Shown: piece by piece, positions 3,175 through 21,475 of the stretch
How the letters are laid out: every line of letters begins with the position of its first letter
How positions within the stretch are numbered: position 1 is the first letter of the stretch
NCBI GenBank assembly: GCA_015233245.1
Contig: JADFYB010000010.1
Span: 1-41,003 of the forward strand
Direction: 5' to 3'
DNA length: 41,003 bases
From: Nitrospirota bacterium
GTDB taxonomy: Bacteria; Nitrospirota; Thermodesulfovibrionia; Thermodesulfovibrionales; Magnetobacteriaceae
Made by a program: the position numbers and the translations under genes
Notes under the pieces: generated by a model
The model's input: only the letters and a program-made list of their open reading frames with translations
What the model was told of the DNA's origin: nothing
The model's database searches: none

Positions 3175-3320
3175 AGTTTTAAGACCTCCGGATTTTTGAC
3201 GTTAACATAACTTTAGATACCACAATCAATTCTATAACAATACAACACATTTGTAAAGGGTATAATGACCAGCAGAGCGGGATGGCGTCAAAACCTGCAA
3301 TTTATTCTTTCATGGAAGTG

Positions 3321-4172: not shown

Positions 4173-4309
4173 CTATTGCAAAATATGACGACTTGCTATC
4201 GCTCCACGCACATTAAGCGTTGTCTAATATCAATGTCATTTTTATCTATGTACAATTATACAATTTATCCTCCTTTTTGTTAAAGCAGGTTTCAGTTACA
4301 CATATTAAA

Positions 4310-4837
4310 CTATTCATGTGTAAAATAATTCTGAATGACTGCCATAGGCAGGAAAAGCCGGTATGAGTAATTAATCAATGGGATAAACTGGAAATGCTCA
4401 TAAAACGATCTGGCCTTATTGTCTTTGGCATCAACAATTACAGCCACTGAGCCTATCTGTTCCGTCAATTTAAGAGAACGCCGGAGAGCATCCACAAGTA
4501 AGAGTTCGCCATAGCCTCTGCTCTGATAATGGCGGTCAACCGCGAGTCTGCCAATTAGTGTTGCGGGCATTATGGGATAGTGCGGCAGCTTTCTAACAAC
4601 CGGTTCCGGCAACTCCACAACATCAACGTTGGTAGAGGAAAGCGTGTAGTATCCGGCAATTGTTGATAGCGTATCACCCAAAAGGACAAACGAGGCAGCA
4701 ACCTTTTTTTTGACGTCCTGCACGGCCAGTTGCCGGATATAGCGTGTAAGCCCATCTACGTCGCAATCAAAAGCCGCACGGTTGTGATGTTTGCTTAGCA
4801 GCTCTATGACCGGATTAGAATCGGACGCCGCCGGCAC
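4310..4837 (-). CDS. GNAT N-acetyltransferase, TacT-like toxin of a type II TA pair
   Basis: GRLAVDRHYQSRGYGELLLVDALRRSL acetyl-CoA binding motif, VIVDAKDNKARSFYEHFQF; directly downstream of a DUF1778 gene. Confidence 0.88.
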   Translation of the reverse strand: MPAASDSNPVIELLSKHHNRAAFDCDVDGLTRYIRQLAVQDVKKKVAASFVLLGDTLSTIAGYYTLSSTNVDVVELPEPVVRKLPHYPIMPATLIGRLAVDRHYQSRGYGELLLVDALRRSLKLTEQIGSVAVIVDAKDNKARSFYEHFQFIPLINYSYRLFLPMAVIQNYFTHE

Positions 4838-4839
4838 GG

Positions 4840-5136
4840 TCAGTCCATAGTTTTTTTATAGCGTATTACAGCTTTTTTTAACCGTCCGGGTGGTATTACA
4901 GGGTTTAAGAGCGCAGAGACAAAGATTTCCCGATCCTCTTTAGTAAGCTCCATGACCTCATGGTTATGAATGACTTTCGTTGCCTCAGTTTGCAGTGTGG
5001 ATACTACAAAATCGGTCAGTGTGATACCCTGTAGTTGAGCAGCCCGTTTGAACAAGCGTTTTTGCTCACTGCTAATTCTGGCCTCTAAACGTCCGCCTTT
5101 TGAGCCGGTTTTGTACACTTCTTCTGTTAATGGCAT
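4840..5136 (-). CDS. DUF1778-family (RHH) antitoxin
   Basis: RLEARISSEQKRLFKRAAQLQGITLTDFVVSTLQTEA; 98 aa; 2-nt gap to the GNAT toxin gene. Confidence 0.88.
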   Translation of the reverse strand: MPLTEEVYKTGSKGGRLEARISSEQKRLFKRAAQLQGITLTDFVVSTLQTEATKVIHNHEVMELTKEDREIFVSALLNPVIPPGRLKKAVIRYKKTMD

Positions 5137-5157
5137 AGTATCTATCCTCTACCGTTT

Positions 5158-5186
5158 ATAGTACGACAAATAGCCGTACAAGTCAA
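5158..5186 (-). promoter_or_regulatory. Putative TA promoter with embedded inverted repeat operator
   Basis: Minus strand TTGACT-N17-TACTAT (plus 5186..5158), with inverted repeat GTACG-N9-CGTAC at 5161-5179. Confidence 0.5.
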
Positions 5187-5216
5187 GCAGACGAATCGCC
5201 TCATTCCAGACGCTCC

Positions 5217-5801
5217 TTACAGAGTGCCCTTAGTTGAAGGAACACCTTTAACGCGTGGCTCTATCTTTACGGCTGTGCTCAGGGCCCTGCCAAAGGCTTT
5301 AAATATGGACTCAATCATGTGGTGCGTATCCCTACCGTAGTGAAGCCGCACATGGAGATTGAACAAACCATTATTACTTACTCCTCTGAAAAAATCCTCA
5401 AAAAGCGATACCTGTAAATCCCTGAGTGTGTAGTCCCCTCCGGGCACATTATAAACCATATACGGTCTGCCGCTTAAATCAATAATAACCTCCGAGAGGC
5501 TTTCATCCATAGGGACTAAGGCACTGCCAAATCTGGTTATTCCCTCCTTCGTTCCTAACGCTTTTGCAATGGCAGCTCCCATAGTCAGCCCCACATCCTC
5601 CATCAAGTGGTGATAATCAACTTCAATATCTCCGGTTGCCTCCACGGTTAAATCAAACAGCCCGTGTTTACCCATAAGGTCAAGCATGTGGTTTAAAAAC
5701 GGTATCTGTGTGTTTATCTTCGTTACACCGCTGCCGTTGAGGACGATTTCCACTGTTACATCGGTCTCTTTTGTCTTTCTTGTTACTTTTCCTTTTCTCA
5801 T
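5217..5801 (-). CDS. hisB: Imidazoleglycerol-phosphate dehydratase
   Basis: FLNHMLDLMGKHGLFDL, DYHHLMEDVGLTMGAAI, RDTHHMIESIFKAFGRAL. Confidence 0.97.
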   Translation of the reverse strand: MRKGKVTRKTKETDVTVEIVLNGSGVTKINTQIPFLNHMLDLMGKHGLFDLTVEATGDIEVDYHHLMEDVGLTMGAAIAKALGTKEGITRFGSALVPMDESLSEVIIDLSGRPYMVYNVPGGDYTLRDLQVSLFEDFFRGVSNNGLFNLHVRLHYGRDTHHMIESIFKAFGRALSTAVKIEPRVKGVPSTKGTL

Positions 5802-6859
5802 GTTGTCCTTTTAGTGTTTAATATTTTTTCTATACAATTTAAAAAGAAGGTGTTTTCCTCCGGTGTTCCCACTGTCACCCTGAGGCAGTCATTTAGAGCA
5901 GGCACAGCCGCTCCAAAACTCTTAACGGCAACCCCGCTTTCCAAAAGTTTACTATAGAGCTCAACTCCTTTCATGCGCAAGGGCTTTATTAAAAAGAAGT
6001 TTGAATCAGAGGGATAAACCCTGAGTGCGTTAAATTCGTTAAGTCTTTCCATGAGGCGATATCTTTCAGAAATGATTGTCTGTATGTCTTCAGAAAGCTC
6101 GCTCTGTTTTTTAGACAGCAAGTCAACTGCAATTGTCTGAGAAAGAGAGTTTACGTTATACGGAAGCCTGAGTTTATTGATTTCCTTTATGATGTCCTCT
6201 CTACCAATTACAAATCCAAGCCTCAAAGCTGCAAATCCGATTTTACTCAGTGTCTTCATTACAACAAGATTGTCATAATTGCCAATATATGAGACAAATG
6301 ACGGTTTATCAGAAAACGACTGATACGCCTCATCAACCACTACGAGCCCTTTGGATTCCATTATAATCCTATGGATATTTTCAACTGCAAACGCATTTCC
6401 TGTCGGGTTATTTGGAGAACTTATGAAAATAATCCGAGGATTTTTCTTATGTATTGTTTTAATAATAGCATCAGTATCAAGTTCAAAATCCTCGTTAAGT
6501 GCAATCGGAAGTGTAGCCTCCGAGAGAGACTTTGCGATTATGCTATACATCACAAATGTTGGCGTTGGATAAAGCACCGGGCCGCCCGTAGCCATGATAC
6601 AATAGTAAATGAGTTCATCGGAGCCGTTACCGTGCAAAATGTTTTCAGGCGGGACATCCCACATTTTTGAAAGAATCGCTCTCAACTCCCTTGCCTCAGG
6701 GTCGGGGTATTTATTGGTTTTAACTAAGTTAAGCGCTTCTGGGCTTATATCAAAGCCAAACGGGCTTTCATTGGCATCAAGTTTAGCTTTGCACTCAAAA
6801 TCATTAACCTTGTAGGCACTAAGGTTAATGACATTTTGTTTTATCAGGCTTACTAACAT
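5798..6859 (-). CDS. hisC: Histidinol-phosphate aminotransferase
   Basis: LDANESPFGF, HGNGSDELI, SSPNNPTGN, VVVDEAYQSF, TLSKIGFAALRLGF PLP-site motif; 4-nt overlap with hisB. Confidence 0.96.
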   Translation of the reverse strand: MLVSLIKQNVINLSAYKVNDFECKAKLDANESPFGFDISPEALNLVKTNKYPDPEARELRAILSKMWDVPPENILHGNGSDELIYYCIMATGGPVLYPTPTFVMYSIIAKSLSEATLPIALNEDFELDTDAIIKTIHKKNPRIIFISSPNNPTGNAFAVENIHRIIMESKGLVVVDEAYQSFSDKPSFVSYIGNYDNLVVMKTLSKIGFAALRLGFVIGREDIIKEINKLRLPYNVNSLSQTIAVDLLSKKQSELSEDIQTIISERYRLMERLNEFNALRVYPSDSNFFLIKPLRMKGVELYSKLLESGVAVKSFGAAVPALNDCLRVTVGTPEENTFFLNCIEKILNTKRTT

Positions 6860-6879
6860 TCTATTTTAAAATACCATAA

Positions 6880-6940
6880 TTTACTGTATAGTCATTGTAA
6901 CAAAAAAACTCTATTTTTTAACAATACTATACAGAGTAAA
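6880..6940. repeat. Imperfect inverted repeat / stem-loop
   Basis: Left arm TTTACTGTATAGTCATTGTAA; reverse complement of right arm TTTACTCTGTATAGTATTGTTAA; ~18-nt T/A-rich loop. Confidence 0.55.
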
Positions 6941-7228
6941 CGCATTTCCAGAGAAAATAATATTATCCATGTAGTTATCGTTCCACCCAGCTTTAAGTCT
7001 TTTATTTTTAACACCTATTGTTGTAGTTTTTTTCTTTTTTAAAAGATTTAATTATGTCCCTCCTGATAACACTGATACATGTTACTTAAAATAACAACTC
7101 TATACTAACTATAGTGACAGAGTCAATTACTGATATATGATCATTTATGATGAAAAATCTTTTTTAGGAATTTATGAAATTTTATACAGAACTATCCATA
7201 ATAAATTTTAAAATCAATAATTTTTAAG

Positions 7229-7257
7229 TTGACAAAATATTAGATTTATGGTAGAAC
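7229..7257 (+). promoter_or_regulatory. Putative sigma70 promoter of the tubulin-like/ASKHA/stator locus
   Basis: TTGACA (7229-7234) - 17 nt - TAGAAC (7252-7257), ~125 nt upstream of the first ORF. Confidence 0.4.
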
Positions 7258-7380
7258 TTAAGCAGTAAGATATTTTTGCATACATTTTAAATGTAATAGT
7301 GCGTAAACTCCATCCGGTAGCAAATGCTATATACCAGTTGTTGTGTAGTTTAAATATTAAGAAAGACGAGGTAACATGGC

Positions 7381-8388
7381 TTGGGAAGTAGGAAGAAGAA
7401 AAAGAAAGACAGGAAAGAACATAGCAATAAACCTAAGAGCAATACAGAACAAGATGAAACAGAGCAAATCATTAGTGAGCTGAGCATGACAGAACAAAGC
7501 GAGACAACGCAAACTAAAACATATAGTTTCTGTAGAAATCTGATACTATGGTATAAATTTAAAATCCTCCGTTTCAACCGTGACAAAGAAATTGAGCAAC
7601 TATTTTATGACAAAAAGTTAAAAGATATAGTTAATGAAGTTAAAAACTCGGCTATTAACAAGAGTACTGATTGCTCTAAAAAAGACTATGTTGAATTAGT
7701 AAGTGTGATTGCACATACATCAAACGCATTCAAGGCAAGCAGATGGGCTTTTGTATCTGCTCTTGCAAGTGTGGTACTATCAATTGCAACTCTCTTCATA
7801 TTGTTTATTACAACGCGCCAACTATATCAGATAACCAACCAAACAAAAATACAAAGCGAACAAACAAAAATACAGAGCGAACAGCTTATCACTACCAATT
7901 TTCGTAAAGCTATTGAGAACCTCAAAGTTAATATAGTAGCACGTGAAAACACAGACAACAAGACAGTTACAGGTCGTTTTCAGTTAGATAATAAAGAACA
8001 CAATAAAGAACACTTCAGTGAGAAAATCAAATCTAAATTTAATGAAAATGTCATAGAAGTAGAATTTACAAATATTGAAAAACAATATATTGAATTTATA
8101 GATATAAGCATAGATTTTGTAGATAGAAAATGTGAAATTAAACCATGTGAAATTGTGCCATGTGAACACATTAATCGTTATTTTTTGAAACATGAAGACG
8201 CAAAAAAGATAACTAATAATGATAAGTATCGCATTAGTAAATCTAAAGACAATAATAGCATAGAAAATCGCATATCTACATATCTAAAAAATCGAGACAA
8301 TAGTGAAGCTACTCTGTCAGAAATCGCATTTGAAGTTCGAATACAAGCATATGAAGATAAATATATTGAAAGCGTGTTTAATAAATAA
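7381..8388 (+). CDS. Single-TM protein with Lys/Glu-rich cytoplasmic N-terminus; first gene of the locus
   Basis: 335-aa ORF with TTG start after GAGG; hydrophobic segment WAFVSALASVVLSIATLFILFI then tandem TKIQSEQ TKIQSEQ. Confidence 0.7.
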   Translation: MGSRKKKKKDRKEHSNKPKSNTEQDETEQIISELSMTEQSETTQTKTYSFCRNLILWYKFKILRFNRDKEIEQLFYDKKLKDIVNEVKNSAINKSTDCSKKDYVELVSVIAHTSNAFKASRWAFVSALASVVLSIATLFILFITTRQLYQITNQTKIQSEQTKIQSEQLITTNFRKAIENLKVNIVARENTDNKTVTGRFQLDNKEHNKEHFSEKIKSKFNENVIEVEFTNIEKQYIEFIDISIDFVDRKCEIKPCEIVPCEHINRYFLKHEDAKKITNNDKYRISKSKDNNSIENRISTYLKNRDNSEATLSEIAFEVRIQAYEDKYIESVFNK

Positions 8389-8420
8389 TATAAGAAACTA
8401 TTTATTAATGGTAATATTTA

Positions 8421-9764
8421 GTGGTGATAATGTTATATATTAGAAGATATATTCTTTACTTTTTGGTGATTGTTTCAATTATAAACACTAATTTTGCTTG
8501 TAAAAAGCAGACTACTGACAGCCATGCTATAAACTGTGATGGAATAAGCTCTGACACTAAGGTGTTTTTGAGTAAAATGAAAGATGTAGGGAAAATATAT
8601 TATGAGATTAAAAGACCAGATGACCATAAAGATTTGCATTCAGAAATAGCAACCATAATCGAATGTCAAGCAGGTGTAAGATATTTGCAGTTGGAACTTG
8701 ACGATACGGAGTTTGAAGAATTTAAGAAAAGGGACGATAAACCTATTGAAATAGGTTCTTTTGATTATGATAACAATTCTATTAATGTTTTGACTTATGA
8801 TATGTTTATAGGAATAAATCATTATGTCGAAAATAATCAAGGTATATATAAAAAAGATTTTATAAACAAAATAAACAAAATAAAAAGTGGTACTGAAGCA
8901 ATGTATTATGTGATGGAGAAGAATAAACTACACTTGTTTGTTATAGATAATAAAACTAAATCTGTTACGCCTCTTTTCCCTGATCCTACAATAAACTCTT
9001 TGAGTAAAGGGGAATACAATCAAACTATAGAAGTTGCTAATCAGTTAAGAAACAATCCTAACATTGTGTTTAAATTCAAAGTAAAATTTGCAAAAGGTAC
9101 GAAGGTAAACTTCTACTGTTTTGCTAACAATAAAAACTGTGAAGATCGCGATTTTGAGCCGAATGGAGCTCCAGGTAATGTGAAAACTTTAAAAACAAAG
9201 CCAATATCCTTTGATAATTTCACAAAAACATACAATGAATTATCATTTAGATCTTTCACTGAAAGTGAAGATAGTTTGCACTGTGTAAACTTTAATCCCA
9301 TTACAGCATTGAAAAACCATGAAATAGATGCAACAAAGCCACACGATTGTTCTCCTAATGACAAACTTGCAAGTTCCCCTGATAATGTAGTTCACTTTGA
9401 TGAATGCAAAGACAAATTAACACCTTCTTTTAAAAAAGATATTGACATTTTTATTAAACATAAAAATAACTTGCATGTCATAGGATACGCAAGTAACCAA
9501 AGATGTACAGACAGAGCCTCAAAAGATAAAGATATTAGTTGTTTTAACAAACAAATAGCAAAACAACGAGCCGAGGCAGTTAGAGATTACATAGAACAAG
9601 TTACACGCAAAAAAGTTGACTCATCTTTTATCTGTACATCTTTTGAGAATAAGACAGATGTTGAAATAATAAAATCAAAAGATATAACTGAGGAGGTCAG
9701 AAAACAAATGTGTCCCAATGGCAAATTGATGCTAACAGAAGAAATAAAAGAAACATGTAAATAG
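8421..9764 (+). CDS. Exported (possible lipoprotein) OmpA-C-like domain protein
   Basis: N-term hydrophobic signal ILYFLVIVSIINTNFAC; C-term VVHFDECKDKLTPSFKKDIDIFIKHKNNLHVIGYAS...IAKQRAEAVRDYIEQ resembles the OmpA peptidoglycan-binding core. Confidence 0.68.
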   Translation: MVIMLYIRRYILYFLVIVSIINTNFACKKQTTDSHAINCDGISSDTKVFLSKMKDVGKIYYEIKRPDDHKDLHSEIATIIECQAGVRYLQLELDDTEFEEFKKRDDKPIEIGSFDYDNNSINVLTYDMFIGINHYVENNQGIYKKDFINKINKIKSGTEAMYYVMEKNKLHLFVIDNKTKSVTPLFPDPTINSLSKGEYNQTIEVANQLRNNPNIVFKFKVKFAKGTKVNFYCFANNKNCEDRDFEPNGAPGNVKTLKTKPISFDNFTKTYNELSFRSFTESEDSLHCVNFNPITALKNHEIDATKPHDCSPNDKLASSPDNVVHFDECKDKLTPSFKKDIDIFIKHKNNLHVIGYASNQRCTDRASKDKDISCFNKQIAKQRAEAVRDYIEQVTRKKVDSSFICTSFENKTDVEIIKSKDITEEVRKQMCPNGKLMLTEEIKETCK

Positions 9765-9802
9765 TTTAAACGCTAAAAAGAGAATAGAACACGGAGGGCA
9801 TT

Positions 9803-11200
9803 TTGAGGGTTTTGCGTACTTTTAATGGTTTGAAAAACAATAACAGAAACAGATGTTTATTAATAGCAACTTGCTTATTTTTTTTATTATTTACTCAGGC
9901 TACATATTCTTATGGTGAGTTAGCCGCACCACCACCGGAGGAGATCAAGTTAAACATTTTAGAAAGTACAGATAATAACACTGTCATAAATATTTTTTTT
10001 GATGGTAGTTTGTCTATGAAGGGTTATGTTGTCTCGGAGCGCTTTACCTCATATAAGACTCTCGTAAATAATTTGGAATCCATAATAACAGCAAGGTGGC
10101 CTAAGAGCATATTAAATATTTATAAGTTTGGCTCAAAGGTATTTAAGTTAAAAGAGAGAAATGATGTGCTGATGGCTGTAAATTCAGCGTTCTATGAAGA
10201 GAAAGGAATATCTTTTAAGACATATATCGATAAGGTGTTTGACGAAAACGGCGTATGTGACAATAACACCATGTCCGTTGTAATAACAGACTTATTTCAG
10301 TCCGATGGTGATATTAACAGAGTATTAAAGAAAATAAATGAAAAATGTATGGAAAAATCAGTTGCAGTCGGGGTTATAGGGATTAAAAGCGAATTCAAAG
10401 GCGTTGTCACAGACATAGGTTTATATGAAAAGGGGCTTCCATATAGCTCAAAGAGAGACTCTAAAGACACATACAGACCTTTTTATTTACTCATATTCGG
10501 ACCCTATAACAATGTGTTGGATTTTTTTGATTCATTGTCTGAAAAATTACCGGCGGTCAGCACGGATATGTATGAGTTTAAAGATAAAATGACAATATTT
10601 TATTCACACATGGTAAATCCCCTTATTTCATTTGAGGGCTCAAAATTTGAGAGTTTAAACAAAACCGCAAGAGAAACATCCGGTTTAATTAATAATAAGA
10701 CATATCAGAAAGAAATTGTTAAACAATACAGAGTATTAAACGAAGCAGGGGCAGGAGTGCGGCTGTCATTAAAAACCCACCCTCTAAAATATATCCCTGC
10801 TTTTTGCGAATCCAAAATCAAGGCTACATATAAAATAGAAAAATTTTTCAACGGCCAATTTATTACAAAAGATGATTTCTTTAATATAAGCTCAGGCACT
10901 GAGGACAACAATACTATATTTATAGAAGTTAAAATAAAAAAGAAAATTTGGGATGGCGGGTTGTTTCGGATATCGGTTACTCTGAATGCTGAAAAAGAAG
11001 CTTTAAATAATAATGAAAATTGGTGGAATGATTGGAATCTGAAATTGGATGACCTGGATAAGTGGAGGAAATTTCAGTTTTTGTTTCCAGGTTATAAGAC
11101 AGTAAATCTAAACACATTTATGAGTTCTCTTTCAGATATGACCATACAAAAGAGCGACTTAAAGCTCGGTCAGTTGTATTTTTATCTTATGATTGATTAG
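9803..11200 (+). CDS. Exported von Willebrand factor A-like domain protein
   Basis: TTG start after GGAGGG; signal CLLIATCLFFLLFTQATYS; MIDAS-like FFDGSLSMKGY (DxSxS) and SVVITDLFQSDGD. Confidence 0.75.
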   Translation: MRVLRTFNGLKNNNRNRCLLIATCLFFLLFTQATYSYGELAAPPPEEIKLNILESTDNNTVINIFFDGSLSMKGYVVSERFTSYKTLVNNLESIITARWPKSILNIYKFGSKVFKLKERNDVLMAVNSAFYEEKGISFKTYIDKVFDENGVCDNNTMSVVITDLFQSDGDINRVLKKINEKCMEKSVAVGVIGIKSEFKGVVTDIGLYEKGLPYSSKRDSKDTYRPFYLLIFGPYNNVLDFFDSLSEKLPAVSTDMYEFKDKMTIFYSHMVNPLISFEGSKFESLNKTARETSGLINNKTYQKEIVKQYRVLNEAGAGVRLSLKTHPLKYIPAFCESKIKATYKIEKFFNGQFITKDDFFNISSGTEDNNTIFIEVKIKKKIWDGGLFRISVTLNAEKEALNNNENWWNDWNLKLDDLDKWRKFQFLFPGYKTVNLNTFMSSLSDMTIQKSDLKLGQLYFYLMID

Positions 11201-11238
11201 AGAGATTAACAGTACTGAAATATGAGGAGGGGCTAAAG

Positions 11239-11703
11239 ATGGTTAAACATTTTTTGAGCATTGTGCTTATCGTGGGTGTAGGGGTTTGTTTTTATATCGC
11301 AACGGCATACGAGGTGGATTTCATTAGAAAGTTTGTGATGCTGTCATCGGATGTTACTACAGACGATGAGTTCACAGAGGTGTTTACCCGATGGGGTAAG
11401 TATATAGTTGCGAGCTCGGTTGCAACCGCACTTATCTGGTATATAGTCGGGTGGTTCTATAAAATTAATGACTGGCGAATTATTTCAAAAATGAAAACCG
11501 TATGGTATGCGTTATTCCTTCTGCCAATTTTAGTTGTTGGGGTAGCATTGTATAAGGCACCAGTTATAGAGAAAGGGACGGCATGGGTGGTAATATTTTA
11601 TATAACAAACAGCTTGATCCTGTTTTATTTTTCAACGTTTCTACTTTCGCCCCCATCGTTTAAATACATTCCTATTGGCGCTTGCAAGGCAAGACGCTGG
11701 TAA
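11239..11703 (+). CDS. Small multi-TM membrane protein
   Basis: 154 aa with about four hydrophobic segments (FLSIVLIVGVGVCFYIA; YIVASSVATALIWYIVGWFY; WYALFLLPILVVGVALY; AWVVIFYITNSLILFYFSTFLL). Confidence 0.7.
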   Translation: MVKHFLSIVLIVGVGVCFYIATAYEVDFIRKFVMLSSDVTTDDEFTEVFTRWGKYIVASSVATALIWYIVGWFYKINDWRIISKMKTVWYALFLLPILVVGVALYKAPVIEKGTAWVVIFYITNSLILFYFSTFLLSPPSFKYIPIGACKARRW

Positions 11704-11735
11704 AAGCAACCAATAAAACGGCTCAGGAGGAATAG

Positions 11736-13259
11736 ATGAATTTCTACGCTATTGGAATAGGCGGCACAGGGGCAAAGTGTATGGAGGCTCTTATACACTC
11801 TTGTGCAGCCGGATTAATGCCTAAGGGCAGACTTAGCTGTCTGTACATAGATCCGGACAGATCAAACGGCAGTGTAGGCCGTTCTATGGTTTCACTCAAT
11901 AAGTATATAGAGTGTAAAAAACTGAGTTTGGGAAATATTGAATTATTTAATAATAAGCTTGAAATTTTAAAACCCGGTCTTTGGTCGCCAATTGCAACGC
12001 ATATTCGTCCGACTCTGTCTAATTTTTTTAGATATGACACAATGAAAAGCGAGCGTCCCGAGGCAGCACATCTCATGGATGTTCTCTACAGCAATAAGGA
12101 AAAAGAAACTACCCTTGAGCAGGGCTTCAGGGGGTATCCATCAATCGGGGCAGGGATAATGTCTATGGCCATAAATGATAAATCCGAACCGTGGAGAACT
12201 TTTGCTCAAAAAATAGTACAGGATTTAAAGGCCGGAGATGGGGCGAGAGTTTTTCTTTTTGGCTCGATTTTTGGAGGTACCGGCGCATCGGGGCTTCCTA
12301 CGATAGCCCGAAAAATAAAAAACACCGTCATGGAAGAGCTAGGCAGAGCAAATGCTCAATCTATGGTAAGTGAAAAGATACAAGTTGGCGCTGCTATGGT
12401 GCTGCCTTATTTTTCTTTTGTATTTTTAGAAAAAGAAGACGAACTTAAAGCCAAGTCTGAGAACTTTTTGCTAAATACGCAGGTAGCACTGAAATACTAC
12501 CATCAAATGGATAGTTTGAAAATATACGACACCGTCTATTTGTTTGGCGATGAAACGCAAAGTCCGGTAAGCAAGGCAAGCCTTGGAGGTAAGACTCAGG
12601 AAAACGAACCTCATTTTATTGAACTTTATGCCGCTCTGTCAGCTATTGATTTCTTTAACGGCCAGGACCACATTGGATATCTCATGGTGGCAAGAGCAAA
12701 TAATAAGGTCATTGACTGGCAGGATTTACCGGACAAAAGAGGTACATCTATTATTAAAAATAAAATAGGACAAATGACGAGATTTGCATTTGCTTATTTA
12801 AGTACATACTTTCCCATGATTGAGGATATAAAAGAAAAAGGCAACCCGTGCCAGGCACCCTGGTTCATAGATCTTTTTGAGCGGGAAAACATCAAGCTGA
12901 GTAAAGAGGAGGTTTATCAGAGTCTTTTGGATATTAAAGACTATTGTGAAACATACCTCAAATGGATTTCCAGTATACATGAGTCGGTAAAAGACGAAAG
13001 CATAAACTTAATTAAATATGATGCTTTCACACACATGCAAGATGAGGAAGAGGTAAAAAGGGGGGATTTGCTCCGGGATTTTAAGTTCACCGAATTCAAC
13101 AACCTGGTATATCCATTTGCACACCGCTCACGAAACGGGTTGGGGCAGCTATGGGATAAAATGAGTGATATCTCTGCAAGCGATTTTAAGGGAGAACAGG
13201 TTGACGGTATAGGTAAATTCATAAATGCATTATATAAAAAATGTTCTGTTAAGCAATGA
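11736..13259 (+). CDS. Tubulin/FtsZ-like GTPase (Tubulin_2-like)
   Basis: N-term AIGIGGTGAKCMEALIHSCAAG nucleotide-binding start and RVFLFGSIFGGTGASGLPTIARKIKN, the GGTGSG-like tubulin signature; ~507 aa. Confidence 0.82.
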   Translation: MNFYAIGIGGTGAKCMEALIHSCAAGLMPKGRLSCLYIDPDRSNGSVGRSMVSLNKYIECKKLSLGNIELFNNKLEILKPGLWSPIATHIRPTLSNFFRYDTMKSERPEAAHLMDVLYSNKEKETTLEQGFRGYPSIGAGIMSMAINDKSEPWRTFAQKIVQDLKAGDGARVFLFGSIFGGTGASGLPTIARKIKNTVMEELGRANAQSMVSEKIQVGAAMVLPYFSFVFLEKEDELKAKSENFLLNTQVALKYYHQMDSLKIYDTVYLFGDETQSPVSKASLGGKTQENEPHFIELYAALSAIDFFNGQDHIGYLMVARANNKVIDWQDLPDKRGTSIIKNKIGQMTRFAFAYLSTYFPMIEDIKEKGNPCQAPWFIDLFERENIKLSKEEVYQSLLDIKDYCETYLKWISSIHESVKDESINLIKYDAFTHMQDEEEVKRGDLLRDFKFTEFNNLVYPFAHRSRNGLGQLWDKMSDISASDFKGEQVDGIGKFINALYKKCSVKQ

Positions 13260-13292
13260 ACATATTTAGATATTATAGGGAGGGAAACTGAG

Positions 13293-16200
13293 ATGCCATC
13301 ATATCCACCGTTAACGCCGAAATTAAAAATAAATGAAACCAACTCCGTAGCCAATTTTGAGTCTCCTGGTAAATGGTCAAACCGCTATAAAGATGCACTC
13401 TTTGCATTAAGTGAAAGTCTCGACCTTGAAGAGGGATTGGGAAAAAATACGGAACTAACAGGAATACCTGATATGTGGGCAAGGCCTAGATTATTTGAAA
13501 TGGCGCTTTTTGACGCGAAGCATCCGTTAAACGCTAAAACCATAGGAGAGTGGCGGGGGCTATTAGCTATGCTCGCTCTCAAGGAGTTTCTGGACATTCC
13601 TCTTGAGGCTGTTGAGCTAAATCTGGACAATAACCCTGAACAGTTTGACTTTATAGCTGCTGCAAAGGCTTTAAAACCGACTAATCAGCTTTTTGAAGAC
13701 ATCGATTGGACTACTGTCTATATCATATTGTTTAACAAGTTTCCTGTTGGAATGACCTCCCCTACCACGTTAGTTTGTACTGCTACGAATTATTTTAACA
13801 GAATAAACAGAGTCAAGTGGTATAACGGTTCCATTCTTACCGACCCTGTTAAAGAAGTTCGCAGAGAGAGGGGACAGTTATCGGCATGGCTTACAGAACT
13901 TTCAAATAAATTATCAGAAAAGATGAGTGAAAGTGGAAAAAAAGCACCGGATGAATATCATAATATAGTTGCTCTCTTGAAAGGTGAGAGAGGGTTTATA
14001 ACTGAGCTTGGTCAGGCGGATAAAACCTGTGATTACTCAAACAATGTCTATGGTTTTAAGAGGGTTTTTTTTAGTTTCATCGATAAACCACTGTCTTTAG
14101 GCGGAGATAAGGAGTCTCATATTGAAATAGTTACTGAGAAAGAGGTTGATACACGATTACTTCTTGTTGAGCACGACATATGCTCCAATTGGAATATTGA
14201 TGAAAGAGATTTATTAGTTTATAACCACATCCCTTTTTCTCAGATAAGGCCTGAGGAGATATTTCCGGAAACTCATAAGTTAGGAAGTATAACACTACCA
14301 ACTAACGTAGTGGTGAAGACTGCTGATAGTTTTTTTACGAAAAAGTTATTTTTGATAGAACACCCAAATGCTTTTCCGGGCACAGCATCTGTAAAAGGCT
14401 CTACAGGACTGACGTTTCAGGGAAACGATGTTACGTCTGTGTTACCACTCAGTGGTGAACTTCTCGATTATTATACATCTGAGACTCTGTCAAGGCGGAT
14501 TTCAATTTATAAAAACAATGATGATGACATAACTGTAACTTTTACGGTACCGTTAAAAGGCCCTGAGAAAGAATCTGTTAAACCTTATAACAAATCTGCG
14601 ACAAACGGCGCTAAAAACATAAAAACAAAATCAAAAGACTATACAATATCTAAAACGTACAAGAAAAGCGACGGTGACGTGCAAGTGCTTTATGCCCCTC
14701 CTTCTATAGCAATTTGGCCGCATTTTAAAGTAACCGGGGATAACAACTGGAGCCTTTACTTTACATATTTTTCAACACGAGAGGAGAATACTTTTTATGG
14801 AGAACCTCTGCCCAAAGCCGGTAAGAGTGCAAAAACAACTAAAAGGCAGAACACTTCACATACAACAACAGAGATAACAGAAATGAGCATGTATCCGGAG
14901 GCAATAGCCTGTAAGTTTGATAACAACGGTGAAAAAGAATATGAAGATATAGGCATATTGCTGCTTGAAACACCACCTGAGGTTGAAATAGCCGCAAACA
15001 ACTCATGTGAGATTGGAGTTGACCTGGGCACAACCGCTACAAACGTGTACTACAGAGCAAACGACAGGTCACAACCCATGCCAATGACATTTACGGATAA
15101 TCTGTTTTTACGGGTAACAGAAACACCTCAGTCGCCGGAGTACTTACGAGGCTTTATTAACGATGTTTTGATTGATTTGCCTTTTCTGTCAATCTATGAT
15201 GTGCTGGATATAACGGCAAAGGATCCGTTAAACCCATTTAAAGATGGACATATTTTCTACATATATGCTTTTGCAGATTTTTTTGAGGATGCTGTTAAAA
15301 GAAAGACTATAGAGACAGATCTTAAGTGGGGCAGACTAAAGGAAAATATATATACTGCCGCATTTCTAAAACAGATTTATCTGCAGAGTGCTGCTCAGGT
15401 AGTATCTGAGGGAATAAATCAGATAAAATGGAAATTTTCATATCCTGTTAATTTTAGATTTTACAAAGCGTTTAAAGCAACATGGCAAGACATAATAGAG
15501 TATTACAACGACAAACTCAATCTTAAACTCACGCAAAGTGAAATGCTTAGCGGAGAGACGGAAAGTGTTGTGGCAGCCCGCTATTTTGCAAGAGAGAATA
15601 CTTTTAGAGCCTCCTTTAATACCGGAGCGATTTGTATAGATATTGGCGGAGGAACCTCCGATTTTTCCATTTGGTATGAAAATAACTTAATACACCAGAC
15701 GTCGGTAAAATTTGCAGGCAGAAATATTTTTATAGACCTTTTCAGTGCAAATGACTTTGCTATTCTTAAAAGTCTTGAGGATAACGATATTTATGAAAAG
15801 TATAAAGGGGCACGGGATCAAAAGTACTACTACGCAATGCTTGAGAGTTTGGTTATAGGACGTTGTAATAGCAAGGGCGGTAATGGTGAAAATTGGTTTA
15901 AGCGGCTGGCTGCGCGCAGTGATGAGCCGGATTTCAAAAAGTTTAAACAACTTTTAGCAGTTGGTTTAGCAGGGCTTTTCTACTACAATGGTTTGCTAAT
16001 GAAATATGTAAAAGAGGGCGGACTTACAAAGGACAGAGCAGAAATCACTAAAATTTATCTCGGCGGACGCGGCGTTAATGCCATTCACTGGCTTGGTGAC
16101 GGTATCTATAATGAAAAAACAGAGATAAACGATTTATTTAAACATGCTGCGGCCACTGCTTTTTCAGATATGGAGGAGGAAAGAGAACGAATTGTCAAGT

Positions 16201-16634
16201 CTCTTGAAATAAAACTTTCTTTGAAACTTAAAGCGGAAGCAGCTATAGGACTCGTATCTGAAATTGATACAAAATTATCAGTTGGTGAGCATATTAGTGA
16301 GCCACAAGTGCTTGCTTGTGAGAAATGTAAAGGTGCAGATGAACACAACTGGAACACAATCTTGAAAGAAGATGATTTTATCGCGGGAATAAAGGTCGAC
16401 AAAGAACTTGAGCAGCTTAAAAGTTTTATTAACGCCTTCAATAGTCACTGCGGTAAATACAAAATTGAACAAATTACAGGAAGCGATATTATGTACAACA
16501 GCATTTACACGAAAGTGGATCAGAGCGTAACCAATATGAGGAATGGAGAAAAAAACACACTAATCCTTGAACCGATCTTTATTACGGAATTAAGAGAACT
16601 CCTTTACCACATGAAAACTGCATGGGGAAGGTAA
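13293..16634 (+). CDS. Large protein with C-terminal actin/Hsp70-like (ASKHA) ATPase domain
   Basis: 1113 aa; phosphate-1 CEIGVDLGTTATNVYYR, phosphate-2 AICIDIGGGTSDFSIWYENN, possible adenosine motif IYLGGRGVNAIHWLG; ~570-aa N-terminal region of unknown fold. Confidence 0.82.
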   Translation: MPSYPPLTPKLKINETNSVANFESPGKWSNRYKDALFALSESLDLEEGLGKNTELTGIPDMWARPRLFEMALFDAKHPLNAKTIGEWRGLLAMLALKEFLDIPLEAVELNLDNNPEQFDFIAAAKALKPTNQLFEDIDWTTVYIILFNKFPVGMTSPTTLVCTATNYFNRINRVKWYNGSILTDPVKEVRRERGQLSAWLTELSNKLSEKMSESGKKAPDEYHNIVALLKGERGFITELGQADKTCDYSNNVYGFKRVFFSFIDKPLSLGGDKESHIEIVTEKEVDTRLLLVEHDICSNWNIDERDLLVYNHIPFSQIRPEEIFPETHKLGSITLPTNVVVKTADSFFTKKLFLIEHPNAFPGTASVKGSTGLTFQGNDVTSVLPLSGELLDYYTSETLSRRISIYKNNDDDITVTFTVPLKGPEKESVKPYNKSATNGAKNIKTKSKDYTISKTYKKSDGDVQVLYAPPSIAIWPHFKVTGDNNWSLYFTYFSTREENTFYGEPLPKAGKSAKTTKRQNTSHTTTEITEMSMYPEAIACKFDNNGEKEYEDIGILLLETPPEVEIAANNSCEIGVDLGTTATNVYYRANDRSQPMPMTFTDNLFLRVTETPQSPEYLRGFINDVLIDLPFLSIYDVLDITAKDPLNPFKDGHIFYIYAFADFFEDAVKRKTIETDLKWGRLKENIYTAAFLKQIYLQSAAQVVSEGINQIKWKFSYPVNFRFYKAFKATWQDIIEYYNDKLNLKLTQSEMLSGETESVVAARYFARENTFRASFNTGAICIDIGGGTSDFSIWYENNLIHQTSVKFAGRNIFIDLFSANDFAILKSLEDNDIYEKYKGARDQKYYYAMLESLVIGRCNSKGGNGENWFKRLAARSDEPDFKKFKQLLAVGLAGLFYYNGLLMKYVKEGGLTKDRAEITKIYLGGRGVNAIHWLGDGIYNEKTEINDLFKHAAATAFSDMEEERERIVKSLEIKLSLKLKAEAAIGLVSEIDTKLSVGEHISEPQVLACEKCKGADEHNWNTILKEDDFIAGIKVDKELEQLKSFINAFNSHCGKYKIEQITGSDIMYNSIYTKVDQSVTNMRNGEKNTLILEPIFITELRELLYHMKTAWGR

Positions 16635-16718
16635 CTGAATATGCCCGGATATATGATTTAAAGTCTTTCAATGAAACACTGATGACTTTGATTAACTAAC
16701 TTTAGACAAGGTGGAATT

Positions 16719-18377
16719 ATGCTTATGAAAAGTTTCTTATCTTTTGTCGTGATTTTTATGTTTTTTTTGATTAGTTTTAATGTATATGCTGGAAGTGGTC
16801 AAAATGGAAAAAATGCACATAAACAAGCAAAAGCTGGGGAAAATGCTGTTGAAAAAAATGAAATTACTCAAGAAGAGAAGAAGATAAGCGATGAATTGAA
16901 TAGGTGCAAAGAGGCAGTTGATGTGATAGGAAAGCTTATTGCAGAGTACAAAAAAAAACCTAAAAATTATACGCTCGATAATTTAAAAAACTGGAAAGAT
17001 GAAATAGAAAGTATAGAAAAGGAAATTAATACGATTGATGCGAGCATATTGAAAAAATATAAAAAACTAAAAGCAGATTATGATCAGTCACAGGTGTTAG
17101 TAAAAGATATTTTAAGAAAAATTAATAAAGAAGTTAATAGCCTTATACTTTCTCAGGTTCAAACATGTATAAATAAAATAGAACCTCTGATTAAAAAAAT
17201 ATCTGATAACATTACAAAAATTGAAGAAATGAAAGAAGAAGGGATTTCTAAGAAGAGAGATGAAATATTAAATTATCAGCAAACACTAGACGCACTATTA
17301 AAAGAACAAAAGGAATTGGAGGATACGTTTACAAATGAGTTTGTGAAAGTAAATCCCCTGGATACAGGTGCTTTTAAAGCATTAAAAAAGACTATTGAAG
17401 CTTTAAATACACGTATAAACAAATTGTTAGAAGAAATAAAAAATCCTTCACCAAGTCCCTCAACAAAACCAGAAGAAAACCTTAATGTGAAACAAGACAA
17501 TAAACATGGGAAAAAAGAAACACCATCACCTGAACCATCACCTGATGATGAAAATACATCTCAACTTAAAATCCGTTATAAAACAGATGATCGTTGGGTA
17601 ACTTTGTTTTTTGGATTTATAGGTGGTATTGCAGCAATTTTGGTATTATTCTTAATACTACCAATTTTCTCTGGCAAACAGCAGAGAAGAGGAAATGACA
17701 CACCTGATACTCAAGGTATGCAGAAAAATATTGAGACGCAATTACAAGGAGGTCAAACATTACTTTATATTCAACAACGGCTTACTCAAAATGAATATGA
17801 TATTGATGCGTTAAAAGCAAGTATAAATACAATATTTAGAACAGCTAATGATGTTACAAAAGAAAGGCAAATCCGAAAAGGCGAACAGAGTCAGGATCGG
17901 GAAAACGATTACTCTACAACTAAAGATAGATGGCCTGCAACAGAATATAAAACAGAACCTAAAGGACTTGCTGATAGAGTAAACGACTTCATTCAACAAT
18001 ACAACGAGGATGTAAACACAGGACAGATTCAATTAACCACGAAATTTGACATTACTAAAATTGGTATTCAAAATATGCAAGAACTTATAAATAGTCAAAC
18101 TGCTAAACCAATTTTTGAAGTTATGTTAAGCGGTAATTATTGGTGTATAAAGGAGCAGGACGTCTATTTAGCGGTTCCACGTCCTCTGATGCCGCTTAGG
18201 GCTGACGATTATCATTCTAATGCGTTAAATCAGGTCTTTATGTTTACCGGTTACAATCCTAACTTAATTTACAGAAAAATAAATGTAAAAAAACCGGCTG
18301 TTTTCAAATTAAGCGGTACTAATGCTCAAATATATAAGAAAGGCGAACTGATTCTCGGACGTGGTGAACCGGCATGA
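16719..18377 (+). CDS. Exported coiled-coil protein with Pro-rich linker, one TM helix and a cytoplasmic C-terminal domain
   Basis: Signal MKSFLSFVVIFMFFLISFNVYA; long Lys/Glu heptad-rich region; NPSPSPSTKPEE..TPSPEPSPDDE; TM WVTLFFGFIGGIAAILVLFLILPIF; soluble C-terminus. Confidence 0.72.
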   Translation: MLMKSFLSFVVIFMFFLISFNVYAGSGQNGKNAHKQAKAGENAVEKNEITQEEKKISDELNRCKEAVDVIGKLIAEYKKKPKNYTLDNLKNWKDEIESIEKEINTIDASILKKYKKLKADYDQSQVLVKDILRKINKEVNSLILSQVQTCINKIEPLIKKISDNITKIEEMKEEGISKKRDEILNYQQTLDALLKEQKELEDTFTNEFVKVNPLDTGAFKALKKTIEALNTRINKLLEEIKNPSPSPSTKPEENLNVKQDNKHGKKETPSPEPSPDDENTSQLKIRYKTDDRWVTLFFGFIGGIAAILVLFLILPIFSGKQQRRGNDTPDTQGMQKNIETQLQGGQTLLYIQQRLTQNEYDIDALKASINTIFRTANDVTKERQIRKGEQSQDRENDYSTTKDRWPATEYKTEPKGLADRVNDFIQQYNEDVNTGQIQLTTKFDITKIGIQNMQELINSQTAKPIFEVMLSGNYWCIKEQDVYLAVPRPLMPLRADDYHSNALNQVFMFTGYNPNLIYRKINVKKPAVFKLSGTNAQIYKKGELILGRGEPA

Positions 18378-18458
18378 TTACATTATTAATTATCACGTTA
18401 AATTTGTCTTAAAAACATAGCGGATTACATATAGTATGAGCTTAATGGAGGGATTGAA

Positions 18459-20591
18459 GTGACAGAGGATGAAATGTTTAAAGTGGGCGTTGATGTGACG
18501 TTCAAAATAATTATATATATTTTAAAGGCGTCTCATATGTTTTCAGATAATTTTCTGACTTTTATTACACCTGAAAACACAATAGCCCTTAATATCATAT
18601 ATATTCTTACTTCAATTTTTGCTGTCTGGTTTCTTTTTTTGGTATTTAAGTCCGTTATTTTAGTTAGAACATCCCGTGTTTTTTCAAAACTCAGTAATAT
18701 TAACTTTCTTTTAATTGCACTTGAAAACTATGAGGCTGATAAGAAGCGTCAGGAACATGTGCAAGTGAATCAATTTAAAAATGAAGCCTTAAATGAGTAT
18801 ATTAAAAAAATGAGCCTTCCTAAAAAACACATAGCAGTCTCCCATCTGTCTTCAATATTTAGCGCCGGCCTTAAAGATACATACTTTGATATAAATAGCC
18901 AGCTTACTTATGTAATACATAAAATATTCGGTTCTAATTCAATTTTCAAGGCTGTTCTTGGCACTTTTATAATTATTGGACTGCTTGGCACACTGTTTGG
19001 ACTGGCCGATTCCCTATCTAAAATGAATTTCGATTTCGATGGCCATAGTTCCATTGAATCGAAAAACTCCGATAAAGCCCAAAATATGAAACATGAACTG
19101 CAGGATTTTCTCAGTAAGCTTAAAAGTGCTTTTGCGCCAAGCATCTGGGGCGTTGCTCTCACTATCGTGGCCATGTTTTTCTATCTAATTTACATAAGGA
19201 TTATTTGCAACCCCTTACGCTCAAAGATAGAATTTATTACTTTAAATGTTTTGATACCGGAGCTCTACCCTACTCCCTCCCAAAAGTTTACTCAGGCCCT
19301 TCAGGTTAGTTACAAAGAACTTAGCGGTCATTTTGATTCCGCACGTCAGGTTGCTGATATGGCAAACAACATGAAAGGCGATGTTAGAACTATGACCACT
19401 AATCTGGGAGTTGCTAATACTGCCTTAAAGTCACTTGTACCCGCTGTAGATAAAATAAACAAAGCATCTGACAAAATCAATGATCAATTTGCAAATAATC
19501 TAATTAACTTTTCAAAAACTTTTGGTGACAGCGTAAATGCGCTTACGTCTTTTCAGGGAGAACTCAAAGTCTTGTACTCTCAGTTGCTTAGTGAATCATC
19601 TACCTTTCAGACAAACGTAAAAGATACCCTTAAAATTCAGCACACTGAAATCAGCGAAATTCTCAACACCCTGAGAACGTATGAAAAGTCCTATCTTGAC
19701 GACAGAGCTAAGATTGAAGAGGGCATGAAAGAATACATCACACTTGCTGTAAACATAAACGAGAAAATAGATAATTACAATGCCAACTACACCTCTTCAT
19801 CAATGGAAAAAATAAGTTCCGGGCTTAACAATGTAAAGGATTCAGTACACAGTAAGCTCAATGAACTAGTTACCAGATTCAACACATTTGAAGTGCCGAT
19901 GCAACAAGCTGCTACAAAAATGAGCGGCTCCTTTGAGAACTTTTTTAAGCAAATGAACCTGCTGTTTGATGAAATGCGCAAGGAATATTCCAAAGAAATT
20001 CAGGCCAACGCCGCTCAAACATTGGAGTCAAACGAGTTAAAAATGAAAGTGGCAGCCCTTTTTGAAAAGCTCTCAACCTCCTGGGATTCTCAGATTAGTA
20101 GAATCGAGGGGCTCTATACTCACATGACAACTCTAAGCAAAGAAATCAGCTCACTTGGCCTAAACATCACGTCACTCTCCTCCGGAGCACAGAGTTTTGC
20201 CTCATACATGGGTGAAATGGGAGAAACCATGCAAATATTTAAGAAAGCTCCTGAAATATTTAATGATTTCTACAAAGATTTGGTTCCTGTCGCTGATATC
20301 GTTTCCGAATTTACGACAATGGTAAAGGAGATAAAAAAGAGTGTAAAAAGTTTTGACGAAATCTTACAAACAATAAATAGTACTGAATTTACTCCGCCAA
20401 GCTACAATGAATTAACGGATAACGTTAAAGGCCTCTCTGCCTCCATAAATGGCTACACTAACACTATGTACAGTTTCATAGACGAATTTAAGAATTTAAC
20501 CATGAATTTGAGAAATATTAGTATCTTCACTCCTCAACAAAATGATACGTCCATTGCTGAGTCAATTTTAATGAGAAAGCGGGTTTTTTAG
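18459..20591 (+). CDS. MotA/TolQ/ExbB (ZorA-like) proton-channel stator protein with long coiled-coil tail
   Basis: GTG start; TM pair AVLGTFIIIGLLGTLFGLADSL and FAPSIWGVALTIVAMFFYLIYIRII typical of MotA/ExbB/ZorA TM3-4, followed by ~430-aa predicted helical tail. Confidence 0.85.
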   Translation: MTEDEMFKVGVDVTFKIIIYILKASHMFSDNFLTFITPENTIALNIIYILTSIFAVWFLFLVFKSVILVRTSRVFSKLSNINFLLIALENYEADKKRQEHVQVNQFKNEALNEYIKKMSLPKKHIAVSHLSSIFSAGLKDTYFDINSQLTYVIHKIFGSNSIFKAVLGTFIIIGLLGTLFGLADSLSKMNFDFDGHSSIESKNSDKAQNMKHELQDFLSKLKSAFAPSIWGVALTIVAMFFYLIYIRIICNPLRSKIEFITLNVLIPELYPTPSQKFTQALQVSYKELSGHFDSARQVADMANNMKGDVRTMTTNLGVANTALKSLVPAVDKINKASDKINDQFANNLINFSKTFGDSVNALTSFQGELKVLYSQLLSESSTFQTNVKDTLKIQHTEISEILNTLRTYEKSYLDDRAKIEEGMKEYITLAVNINEKIDNYNANYTSSSMEKISSGLNNVKDSVHSKLNELVTRFNTFEVPMQQAATKMSGSFENFFKQMNLLFDEMRKEYSKEIQANAAQTLESNELKMKVAALFEKLSTSWDSQISRIEGLYTHMTTLSKEISSLGLNITSLSSGAQSFASYMGEMGETMQIFKKAPEIFNDFYKDLVPVADIVSEFTTMVKEIKKSVKSFDEILQTINSTEFTPPSYNELTDNVKGLSASINGYTNTMYSFIDEFKNLTMNLRNISIFTPQQNDTSIAESILMRKRVF

Positions 20592-20594
20592 TTA

Positions 20595-21311
20595 ATGGAA
20601 TATAATTCGCTTAATTCATACAATGAGGATGAGGATTTCAATTTTTGGCCATCCTTTGCCGATCTGATGCTCTCCATTGTGCTTATACTTGTTTTAATTA
20701 TGTTTACCTCCATAGTTTATATCTCTCAGGGAAAGCTAAACTTAAGCCAGGTTACTAAAAAACAAATGGAGGTTATACACGATATTGCAGCTGTAAGCGG
20801 CGTGGATGTGCAATGTAAGAGACAACTCGGAGATGAATATAACGAATGTGTAATTGAAGAGCAAGGGATAGCTGTTAAAAACGAATTGACACTCCAGCGA
20901 TTTACATTTTCAGACAATATTCTCTTTTATTCAGACAGTTATGAGATTAACGAAAAAGGCAAACTCGTTTTATCCAAGGTAGGGAATGAATTTAAAAAAA
21001 GAATTAAATATATAGGTGAAATTCAGATTCAGGGCCATGCCGATACTGATAATACAACTATACACGGTACAAACATGAAATTGGCTGCGCTTCGCTCTAT
21101 TGCTGTGTTTGAATTTTTGAGAGACAACGTAGGAATAGACCCTGTCAGACAATTTATGTCTGCCACATCCTTTGGTGAGTACATGCCTGCTTGCCGTAAA
21201 CCCGGAGATTCTTTCGATCTTAAACGGTTAAAGGAATGTAATAAAAATAACGAAGATAAAAGAAAAAATAGGCGTATAGAAATCCTTTTGTTTTACAAAA
21301 ATATTTCATAA
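20595..21311 (+). CDS. MotB/ZorB-like protein with OmpA peptidoglycan-binding domain
   Basis: Single N-term TM with conserved Asp: NFWPSFADLMLSIVLILVLIMFTSIVY; OmpA core GEIQIQGHADTDNT...KLAALRSIAVFEFLRD...KRKNRRIEILL. Confidence 0.92.
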   Translation: MEYNSLNSYNEDEDFNFWPSFADLMLSIVLILVLIMFTSIVYISQGKLNLSQVTKKQMEVIHDIAAVSGVDVQCKRQLGDEYNECVIEEQGIAVKNELTLQRFTFSDNILFYSDSYEINEKGKLVLSKVGNEFKKRIKYIGEIQIQGHADTDNTTIHGTNMKLAALRSIAVFEFLRDNVGIDPVRQFMSATSFGEYMPACRKPGDSFDLKRLKECNKNNEDKRKNRRIEILLFYKNIS

Positions 21312-21328
21312 CGGATGTTTATCATGTA

Positions 21329-21453
21329 ATACCAATTCGTAGTCAGAAGTATAACAAGGCGGCAAGGAGAAAGCGACGCAGGCGTACTTTTAGTACGCTG
21401 AGGAGCTTTTGACGCACGCCAACGAAGTTAGACGATTGAATGCAGATTGGTAT
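21329..21453. repeat. ~125-bp element with terminal inverted repeats and internal palindrome (MITE/REP-like)
   Basis: Termini TAATACCAAT / ATTGGTATAA; internal GCGTACT-TTT-AGTACGC perfect hairpin (extendable to CAGGCGTACT/AGTACGCTG with a bulge). Sits in the convergent intergenic gap. Confidence 0.6.
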
Positions 21454-21475
21454 AACACACTATTGCAAAGTCCTG

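Follow-up and report, generated by a model that had tools for sequence, protein, structure and literature searches.

Neighborhoods that pair a tubulin-like protein of the Tubulin_2 family (PF13809) with vWA and OmpA-type proteins were described in bacteria by Makarova and Koonin, who proposed a membrane-remodeling system (PMC2875224). As described there, FtsZl1 is a protein of about 1000 amino acids (aa) in which an N-terminal FtsZ domain is joined to an extended coiled coil and a helical C-terminal domain, and a reviewer of the paper raised a role in transport or signaling. Related tubulin/vWA/Hsp70 systems have been classed as conflict systems, where tubulin and HSP70 are non-overlapping themes (Kaur et al. 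2020, PMC7159879). In the Zorya anti-phage systems, the ZorAB pair requires the long tail of its A subunit, ion flow, and peptidoglycan binding, and residues H186, L199, R203, R254, and R259 of type I ZorB are needed for peptidoglycan binding and defense (PMC11890865). Here we analyze a 41,003-nucleotide stretch of a metagenome-assembled Nitrospirota genome (GCA_015233245.1, contig JADFYB010000010.1; hereafter the window), in which a gene cluster at 7381-21311 encodes a tubulin-like GTPase, a large ATPase of the actin/Hsp70 (ASKHA) superfamily, and a MotAB-like stator pair. The original prediction, made from the letters alone, read this cluster as an envelope-spanning motor in which ion flux through the stator is coupled to a tubulin/actin-type polymer or switch. 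We find that the tubulin-like and ASKHA proteins belong to a widespread five-part core, to which the stator is best read as a lineage-specific addition.

The cluster consists of nine co-directional open reading frames (ORFs) on the + strand with no gene in between, and our ORF check confirmed the predicted coordinates and short gaps (about 85 nt at most), the widest being 84 nt (16634-16719) and 81 nt (18377-18459). A single-sequence scan of the genome contigs returned no matches, and a five-row alignment then gave 118 relatives in public genomes, reduced to 79 loci. The loci come from more than ten phyla in all, including Nitrospirota, Acidobacteriota, Aminicenantes, KSB1, Poribacteria, and Cyanobacteriota, with further loci from Bacteroidota, Ignavibacteriota, Calditrichota, Pseudomonadota, Thermodesulfobacteriota, and Bacillota. 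Gene order was counted over the window and the loci with a called tubulin gene, 79 in total. The order is constant: a vWA protein, a small protein with about four transmembrane (TM) segments, the tubulin-like protein, the ASKHA protein, and usually then a bitopic coiled-coil protein. ASKHA is directly downstream of tubulin in 73/79 loci, so the predicted association of these two genes across genomes holds, and a small multi-TM gene is directly upstream of tubulin in 71/79. Exceptions are mostly contig ends, fragments, or inserted genes, with one or two (L067, L045) real or unclear. A profile of the window-type vWA protein finds the gene in 48/79 loci; diverged Bacteroidota loci have an exported protein of similar size in the vWA position, and in one of them (L076) a stretch resembling the metal ion-dependent adhesion site (MIDAS) can be recognized by eye. 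Based on this recurrence, we take the vWA, 4-TM, tubulin, ASKHA, and bitopic proteins as a five-part core.

The tubulin-like protein (core part 3, 11736-13259, + strand) is a member of the FtsZ/tubulin superfamily, judging by its modeled fold and its T1/T4 glycine loops. It matches Pfam PF13809 (Tubulin_2) at 30.8 bits against a cut-off of 27, and the domain is detected in 47 of 55 family members. An AlphaFold2 model built from the 55-sequence family alignment has a mean predicted local distance difference test (pLDDT) score of 90.7. All of its Foldseek matches at E<=0.001 are FtsZ, TubZ, or tubulin, and VIA-align superposes it on FtsZ (Z=18.0, 3.4 A, 185 residues within 1-311), in line with the tubulin-like fold originally predicted. 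The GTP-loop residues G9, G10, G12, and F179-G183, which make up the GG(T/S)G and FGGTG loops, are invariant in all 55 sequences. Full-length homologues have about 470-565 aa, there is no long coiled coil in the model, and the nearest homologue in named records is from a Nitrospirae metagenome-assembled genome (MAG). A PDB sequence search with the tubulin, ASKHA, and stator A proteins gave nothing useful, returning chance matches to hexon and MHC.

Sequence searches with the ASKHA product (core part 4, 13293-16634, + strand, 1113 aa) gave weak similarity to MreB and FtsA only. Its model (pLDDT 84.7) is more informative: residues 570-1003 match MreB with Z 16.5 and DnaK with Z 15.8, so the predicted actin/Hsp70-type fold is borne out despite the weak sequence matches. 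The 570-residue region in front of this fold is predicted to be mixed alpha/beta and then beta-rich. Phosphate-1 (DxG), phosphate-2 (DxGG), and adenosine (GG) motifs are present, and the nucleotide-site residues D577, G579, D783, G785, G786, D790, and G925 are invariant in 48/48 sequences. By modeled fold and motifs, then, the protein is a member of the ASKHA (actin/Hsp70/FtsA) superfamily.

Core part 1 (9803-11200, + strand) is an exported protein with no Pfam vWA match, so its assignment as a vWA protein comes from the MIDAS motif DGSLSM and the conservation of that motif. The MIDAS (DxSxSM, DxTxSM, and variants) is kept in 46/48 homologues, which supports the exported vWA protein of the original prediction. 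About 40 of the 48 carry a lipobox-like motif, and the window protein is without one. Core part 2 (11239-11703, + strand) is an inner-membrane protein of 154 aa with about 4 TM segments. Core part 5 (16719-18377, + strand) is predicted to be bitopic, with a signal peptide, a long periplasmic coiled coil, a TM segment at about 293-317, and a conserved cytoplasmic C-terminal domain. Coiled-coil profiles polluted the first HMM search, so only this C-terminal domain was used in the profile search. In the 14 loci that carry a stator in the clade described below, this domain is found immediately or almost immediately after ASKHA; weaker matches come from Cyanobacteriota, Ignavibacteriota, Thermodesulfobacteriota, and Pelagibacteraceae. 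Matches of core part 5 to LmuB and JetC in PADLOC were dismissed as coiled-coil noise.

What follows the core varies. In cyanobacterial loci, WD40 propellers, zinc ribbons, and coiled coils come after ASKHA. HSP70 (7 of 86 sampled neighbors) and TerD together with OmpA proteins occupy this position mainly in Bacteroidota. L048, L051, and L053 encode an HSP70-family protein after the large ASKHA protein, a hint that a system may contain two ASKHA proteins. TerD proteins with an OmpA protein lie downstream of the core in L055 (14983-17193) and L076 (16680-18661), a Bacteroidota locus and an unassigned MAG. In the KSB1 locus L019, a protein at 16164-17225 with a TIR/nucleoside-deoxyribosyltransferase-like domain fused to Lcl_C sits between core part 5 and the stator and is possibly an effector or sensor.

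The last two genes of the cluster encode the predicted MotAB-like stator, and its identity is confirmed by both profile matches and conserved residues. Stator A (18459-20591, + strand) has three TM segments, GLLGTLFGL and APS motifs, a MotA_ExbB domain (PF01618) at 23.1 bits against a cut-off of 22.9, and a cytoplasmic coiled-coil tail of roughly 400 residues. Stator B (20595-21311, + strand) has a single TM segment with an ion-binding aspartate (Asp23, in WPSFADLM) that is invariant in 13/13 B subunits, and an OmpA-type peptidoglycan-binding domain at 39.7 bits. The GLLGT motif of the A subunit is nearly invariant, and the peptidoglycan-binding residues H148, N160, L163, R167, R226, and R227 of the B subunit are kept in 12-13 of 13 (Arg in 13/13, His in 12/13). 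From the channel motif in A and the single-TM B with its aspartate, we assign the pair to the MotA/TolQ/ExbB-MotB/TolR stator superfamily, and the conserved residues suggest that the stator is functional.

On the tubulin tree, the stator-bearing loci are confined to one clade (SH-aLRT 92, not starred; 15 rows) and L042, a Phascolarctobacterium MAG (Bacillota) outside that clade. Within the clade, 14 loci from Nitrospirota, Acidobacteriota, Aminicenantes, KSB1, and Poribacteria have a stator, bringing the total to 15 loci; the remaining row (L021) stops before the stator position would be reached. Wherever the downstream sequence of a clade member is long enough, an A subunit is present, and B comes after A except at contig ends (L018, L026) and in L016, from genome G004. 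Our best reading is that the stator is a lineage-specific module recruited to the core. Standalone stator pairs of the window subfamily, unlinked to a core, were also seen at L104 (9811-12587) and L112 (10494-12781), in two species of one genus.

The cluster is part of a 14.6 kb segment (6851-21463) missing from G003, the nearest congener. In blastn comparisons with G003 and the complete genome G001, synteny with G003 ends exactly at both edges, the left flank matching through 6850 and the right flank from 21464 at 89-94% identity. GC content falls to 30-39% within the segment from about 40-44% on both flanks. In G003 the flanks are on separate contigs, and in G001 a long distance lies between them, so a rearrangement was involved as well and no clean insertion into an empty site was evident. 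The tubulin gene is present in five of 149 relatives, counting the window's own genome, and is missing from three congeners. Cyanobacterial plasmids bear copies of the ASKHA gene, and no tubulin homologue was found in the phage collection that we searched. The patchy distribution, the synteny break, and the plasmid copies support reading the cluster as an accessory one, and its best reading is as one that has moved horizontally across distantly related phyla. About 3 kb from the segment, at 3321-4172 on the - strand, is a gene for a protein with AbiJ N-terminal domain 4 (PF18863, E 7.8e-39; an abortive-infection family), in DNA that is common to G003 and thus outside the acquired segment.

The unit that is conserved is smaller than the nine-gene locus of the original prediction. 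Although all nine ORFs stand, no homologues of the first two were found in any other locus compared, and we regard both as window-specific accessory genes. Gene A (7381-8388, + strand, 335 aa) has a charged N-terminus and one TM segment; domain searches with it, as with core parts 1, 2, and 5, yielded no usable match. Gene B (8421-9764, + strand, 447 aa) encodes a putative exported protein or lipoprotein with a C-terminal OmpA-like domain that scores 22.2, below the Pfam cut-off of 27.2.

We compared the cluster with true Zorya systems from the same phylum, using a type I system in G307 (ZorA, ZorB, ZorC, ZorD) and a type II system in G260 (ZorA, ZorB, ZorE) as positive controls. These loci are at L145 (G307:C78) 769-7850 and L143 (G260:C101) 3887-6739, respectively. 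The suggested link to Zorya is not supported. Coiled-coil noise aside, PADLOC found no match in the other seven proteins of the cluster, confirming that ZorC, ZorD, and ZorE are not visible here. The B subunits of this system group in a separate clade (97/96), distinct from both MotB and the Zorya-like clade (98/93). With the PADLOC ZorB models, the window B subunit scores 67.5 bits at best; the ZorB of the type I control reaches 146.4 bits and a MotB-like protein encoded beside a MotA-sized gene 77.6 bits, and since flagellar MotB scores higher we do not accept PADLOC ZorB matches as evidence of membership. On these three grounds, we rejected membership in Zorya. Separately, L147 (G245:C6) 7512-9741 and many genomes of this phylum have ZorB1-like B subunits of about 130-140 bits; the one locus inspected had no obvious Zor effector in its vicinity, and these B subunits may belong to another widespread orphan stator family.

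We favor, with moderate confidence, an accessory, horizontally moving, envelope-spanning NTPase machine, probably related to stress or conflict, to which a stator was recruited in this lineage. Mobility, the association with TerD, and the kinship in content with the conflict systems of PMC7159879 lead us to favor this kind of role, and a response to envelope stress or to conflict with phage or toxins is the most likely one. We infer a topology in which the vWA domain and the coiled coil are periplasmic and the NTPases and stator tail are cytoplasmic, together with GTP/ATP cycling and a coupling between the parts. The vWA and coiled-coil proteins would detect a periplasmic ligand or periplasmic damage, the 4-TM and bitopic proteins would relay the signal to the cytoplasm, and the tubulin-like protein may assemble or switch in a GTP-dependent manner under the control of its ASKHA partner. 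By analogy with ZorAB, the long cytoplasmic tail of stator A would be a natural link to the NTPase pair, and through it the peptidoglycan-bound, ion-driven stator could act on the NTPase assembly, either energizing it or serving as a sensor of the envelope or the proton-motive force.

Several observations weigh against this picture. Most core loci have no stator, so the core must work without one and the stator would be a lineage-specific input or energizer. One core, in G004, keeps the A subunit alone, and a complete A+B pair from that subfamily is encoded elsewhere in the genome; G010 (92% complete) has such a pair with no core detected; linkage of stator and core is thus strong, not absolute. 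The surroundings of the loci revealed no conspicuous effector nuclease or toxin, and most loci are not in an evident defense island and are flanked by housekeeping genes. The tubulin model has low Foldseek TM-scores (0.2-0.4), indicating that its C-terminal half has diverged, and polymerization is only putative. The predicted ion-flux motor driving a tubulin/actin polymer thus fares unevenly: tubulin and ASKHA co-occur as it expects, while the stator does so only in one clade and one Bacillota locus (15 loci), and such a motor can describe one variant but not the whole family. That the stator works on the tubulin and ASKHA assembly, making a new machine in which peptidoglycan and the proton- or sodium-motive force are coupled to a polymer or switch of the tubulin/actin type, is a tentative proposal, one we think somewhat more likely to be wrong than right.

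The membrane-remodeling proposal of Makarova and Koonin is a serious rival to a stress or conflict role, although we consider it rather unlikely. Under that proposal, the cytoskeletal proteins would shape or anchor the envelope and the stator would pull on peptidoglycan in a housekeeping or niche role, which would suit the vWA, OmpA, and TM partners, the peptidoglycan-binding B subunit, the housekeeping flanks, and the missing effector. Presence in some congeners and absence from others, along with carriage on plasmids, is more in keeping with an accessory than with a structural system, and the fused coiled coil of FtsZl1 is missing from the window family. Phage defense of the Zorya kind, in which the stator would sense phage-induced envelope damage and the cytoplasmic NTPases would be a new effector, strikes us as improbable. 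It has in its favor a stator built like ZorAB (a 3-TM A subunit with a long tail and a peptidoglycan-binding B), the accessory island, and the AbiJ-type gene 3 kb away; it is opposed by the missing ZorC/D/E, a stator B clade separate from the true Zorya B subunits in this phylum, a ZorB score below that of flagellar MotB, and the many cores that have no stator. These last, with the pair that occurs without a core in G010 and unlinked to it in G004, could also mean that the stator is a hitchhiking neighbor, inherited with the core and functionally independent of it. However, the stator lies behind core part 5 in every untruncated clade member, across five phylum-level groups, and in the Bacillota locus, and since neutral linkage would decay, we think hitchhiking very improbable. 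Setting these alternatives beside the stress- or conflict-related accessory machine, we retain the latter.

To our knowledge, every characterized stator drives a rotor, an outer-membrane pathway, or a nuclease system, and we know of none that acts on a tubulin or actin homologue. Coupling between the stator and the NTPases, if real, would put ion-driven motors to a new use and provide a bacterial example in which a tubulin-fold and an actin/Hsp70-fold protein work as an obligate pair. Stator aside, the five-part core, conserved across more than ten phyla and so far without an assigned function, offers a defined target for experiments, part of which is accessible in cultured Bacteroidota and cyanobacteria.

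Compared with Zorya types I-III, the window has the same kind of MotAB-type pair, with a 3-TM A subunit, a long cytoplasmic tail, and a peptidoglycan-binding B with a TM aspartate, and the peptidoglycan-binding residues of its family resemble those needed in type I ZorB (PMC11890865). Unlike Zorya, it has its own stator clade, has no ZorC/D/E, and adjoins the tubulin/ASKHA/vWA core. MotAB, TolQR, and ExbBD share its PF01618 channel motif, TM aspartate, and OmpA-type domain; the window pair differs from them in the long coiled-coil tail of A and in having no linkage to flagellar, Ton, or Tol genes. TerD, the protein of the Ter stress systems, occurs together with OmpA proteins in Bacteroidota versions of this core, whereas the window cluster has no Ter gene.

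The DO-GTPase/GAP1-N2 conflict systems (PMC7159879) also place tubulin-family, vWA, and, as a separate theme, HSP70 proteins in membrane-proximal operons. Here, in contrast, tubulin and ASKHA are almost always together, and those systems have no stator. GAP1 (GAP1-M, PF20014) had no match in the window's genome (93% complete); for the TRAFAC DO-GTPase, there was no P-loop GTPase Pfam match in the nine proteins, and it was not in the 25 commonest families of the 86 neighbors. The FtsZl1 neighborhoods remain the right precedent, as the original prediction held: as described in PMC2875224, they share with this locus a PF13809 tubulin, vWA and OmpA-type partners, several TM proteins, and a patchy bacterial spread, and a vWA gene is in the operon in 48/79 of our loci. 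The fused architecture of FtsZl1 is not seen in the window family, whose 507-aa window member has no fused coiled coil or helical C-terminal domain, the window locus has no P-loop GTPase or kinase, and the main text mentions neither an ASKHA ATPase nor an ion-driven stator. Within the searchable literature (subscription papers, preprints, and supplements being outside our reach), we found no description of the stator-tubulin-ASKHA combination. The tubulin-vWA-OmpA neighborhood is thus known in outline, and what is new relative to the literature text we reached is a large ASKHA protein constantly paired with tubulin where DO-GTPase and GAP1 are both absent, together with the core of five parts and the stator joined to it.

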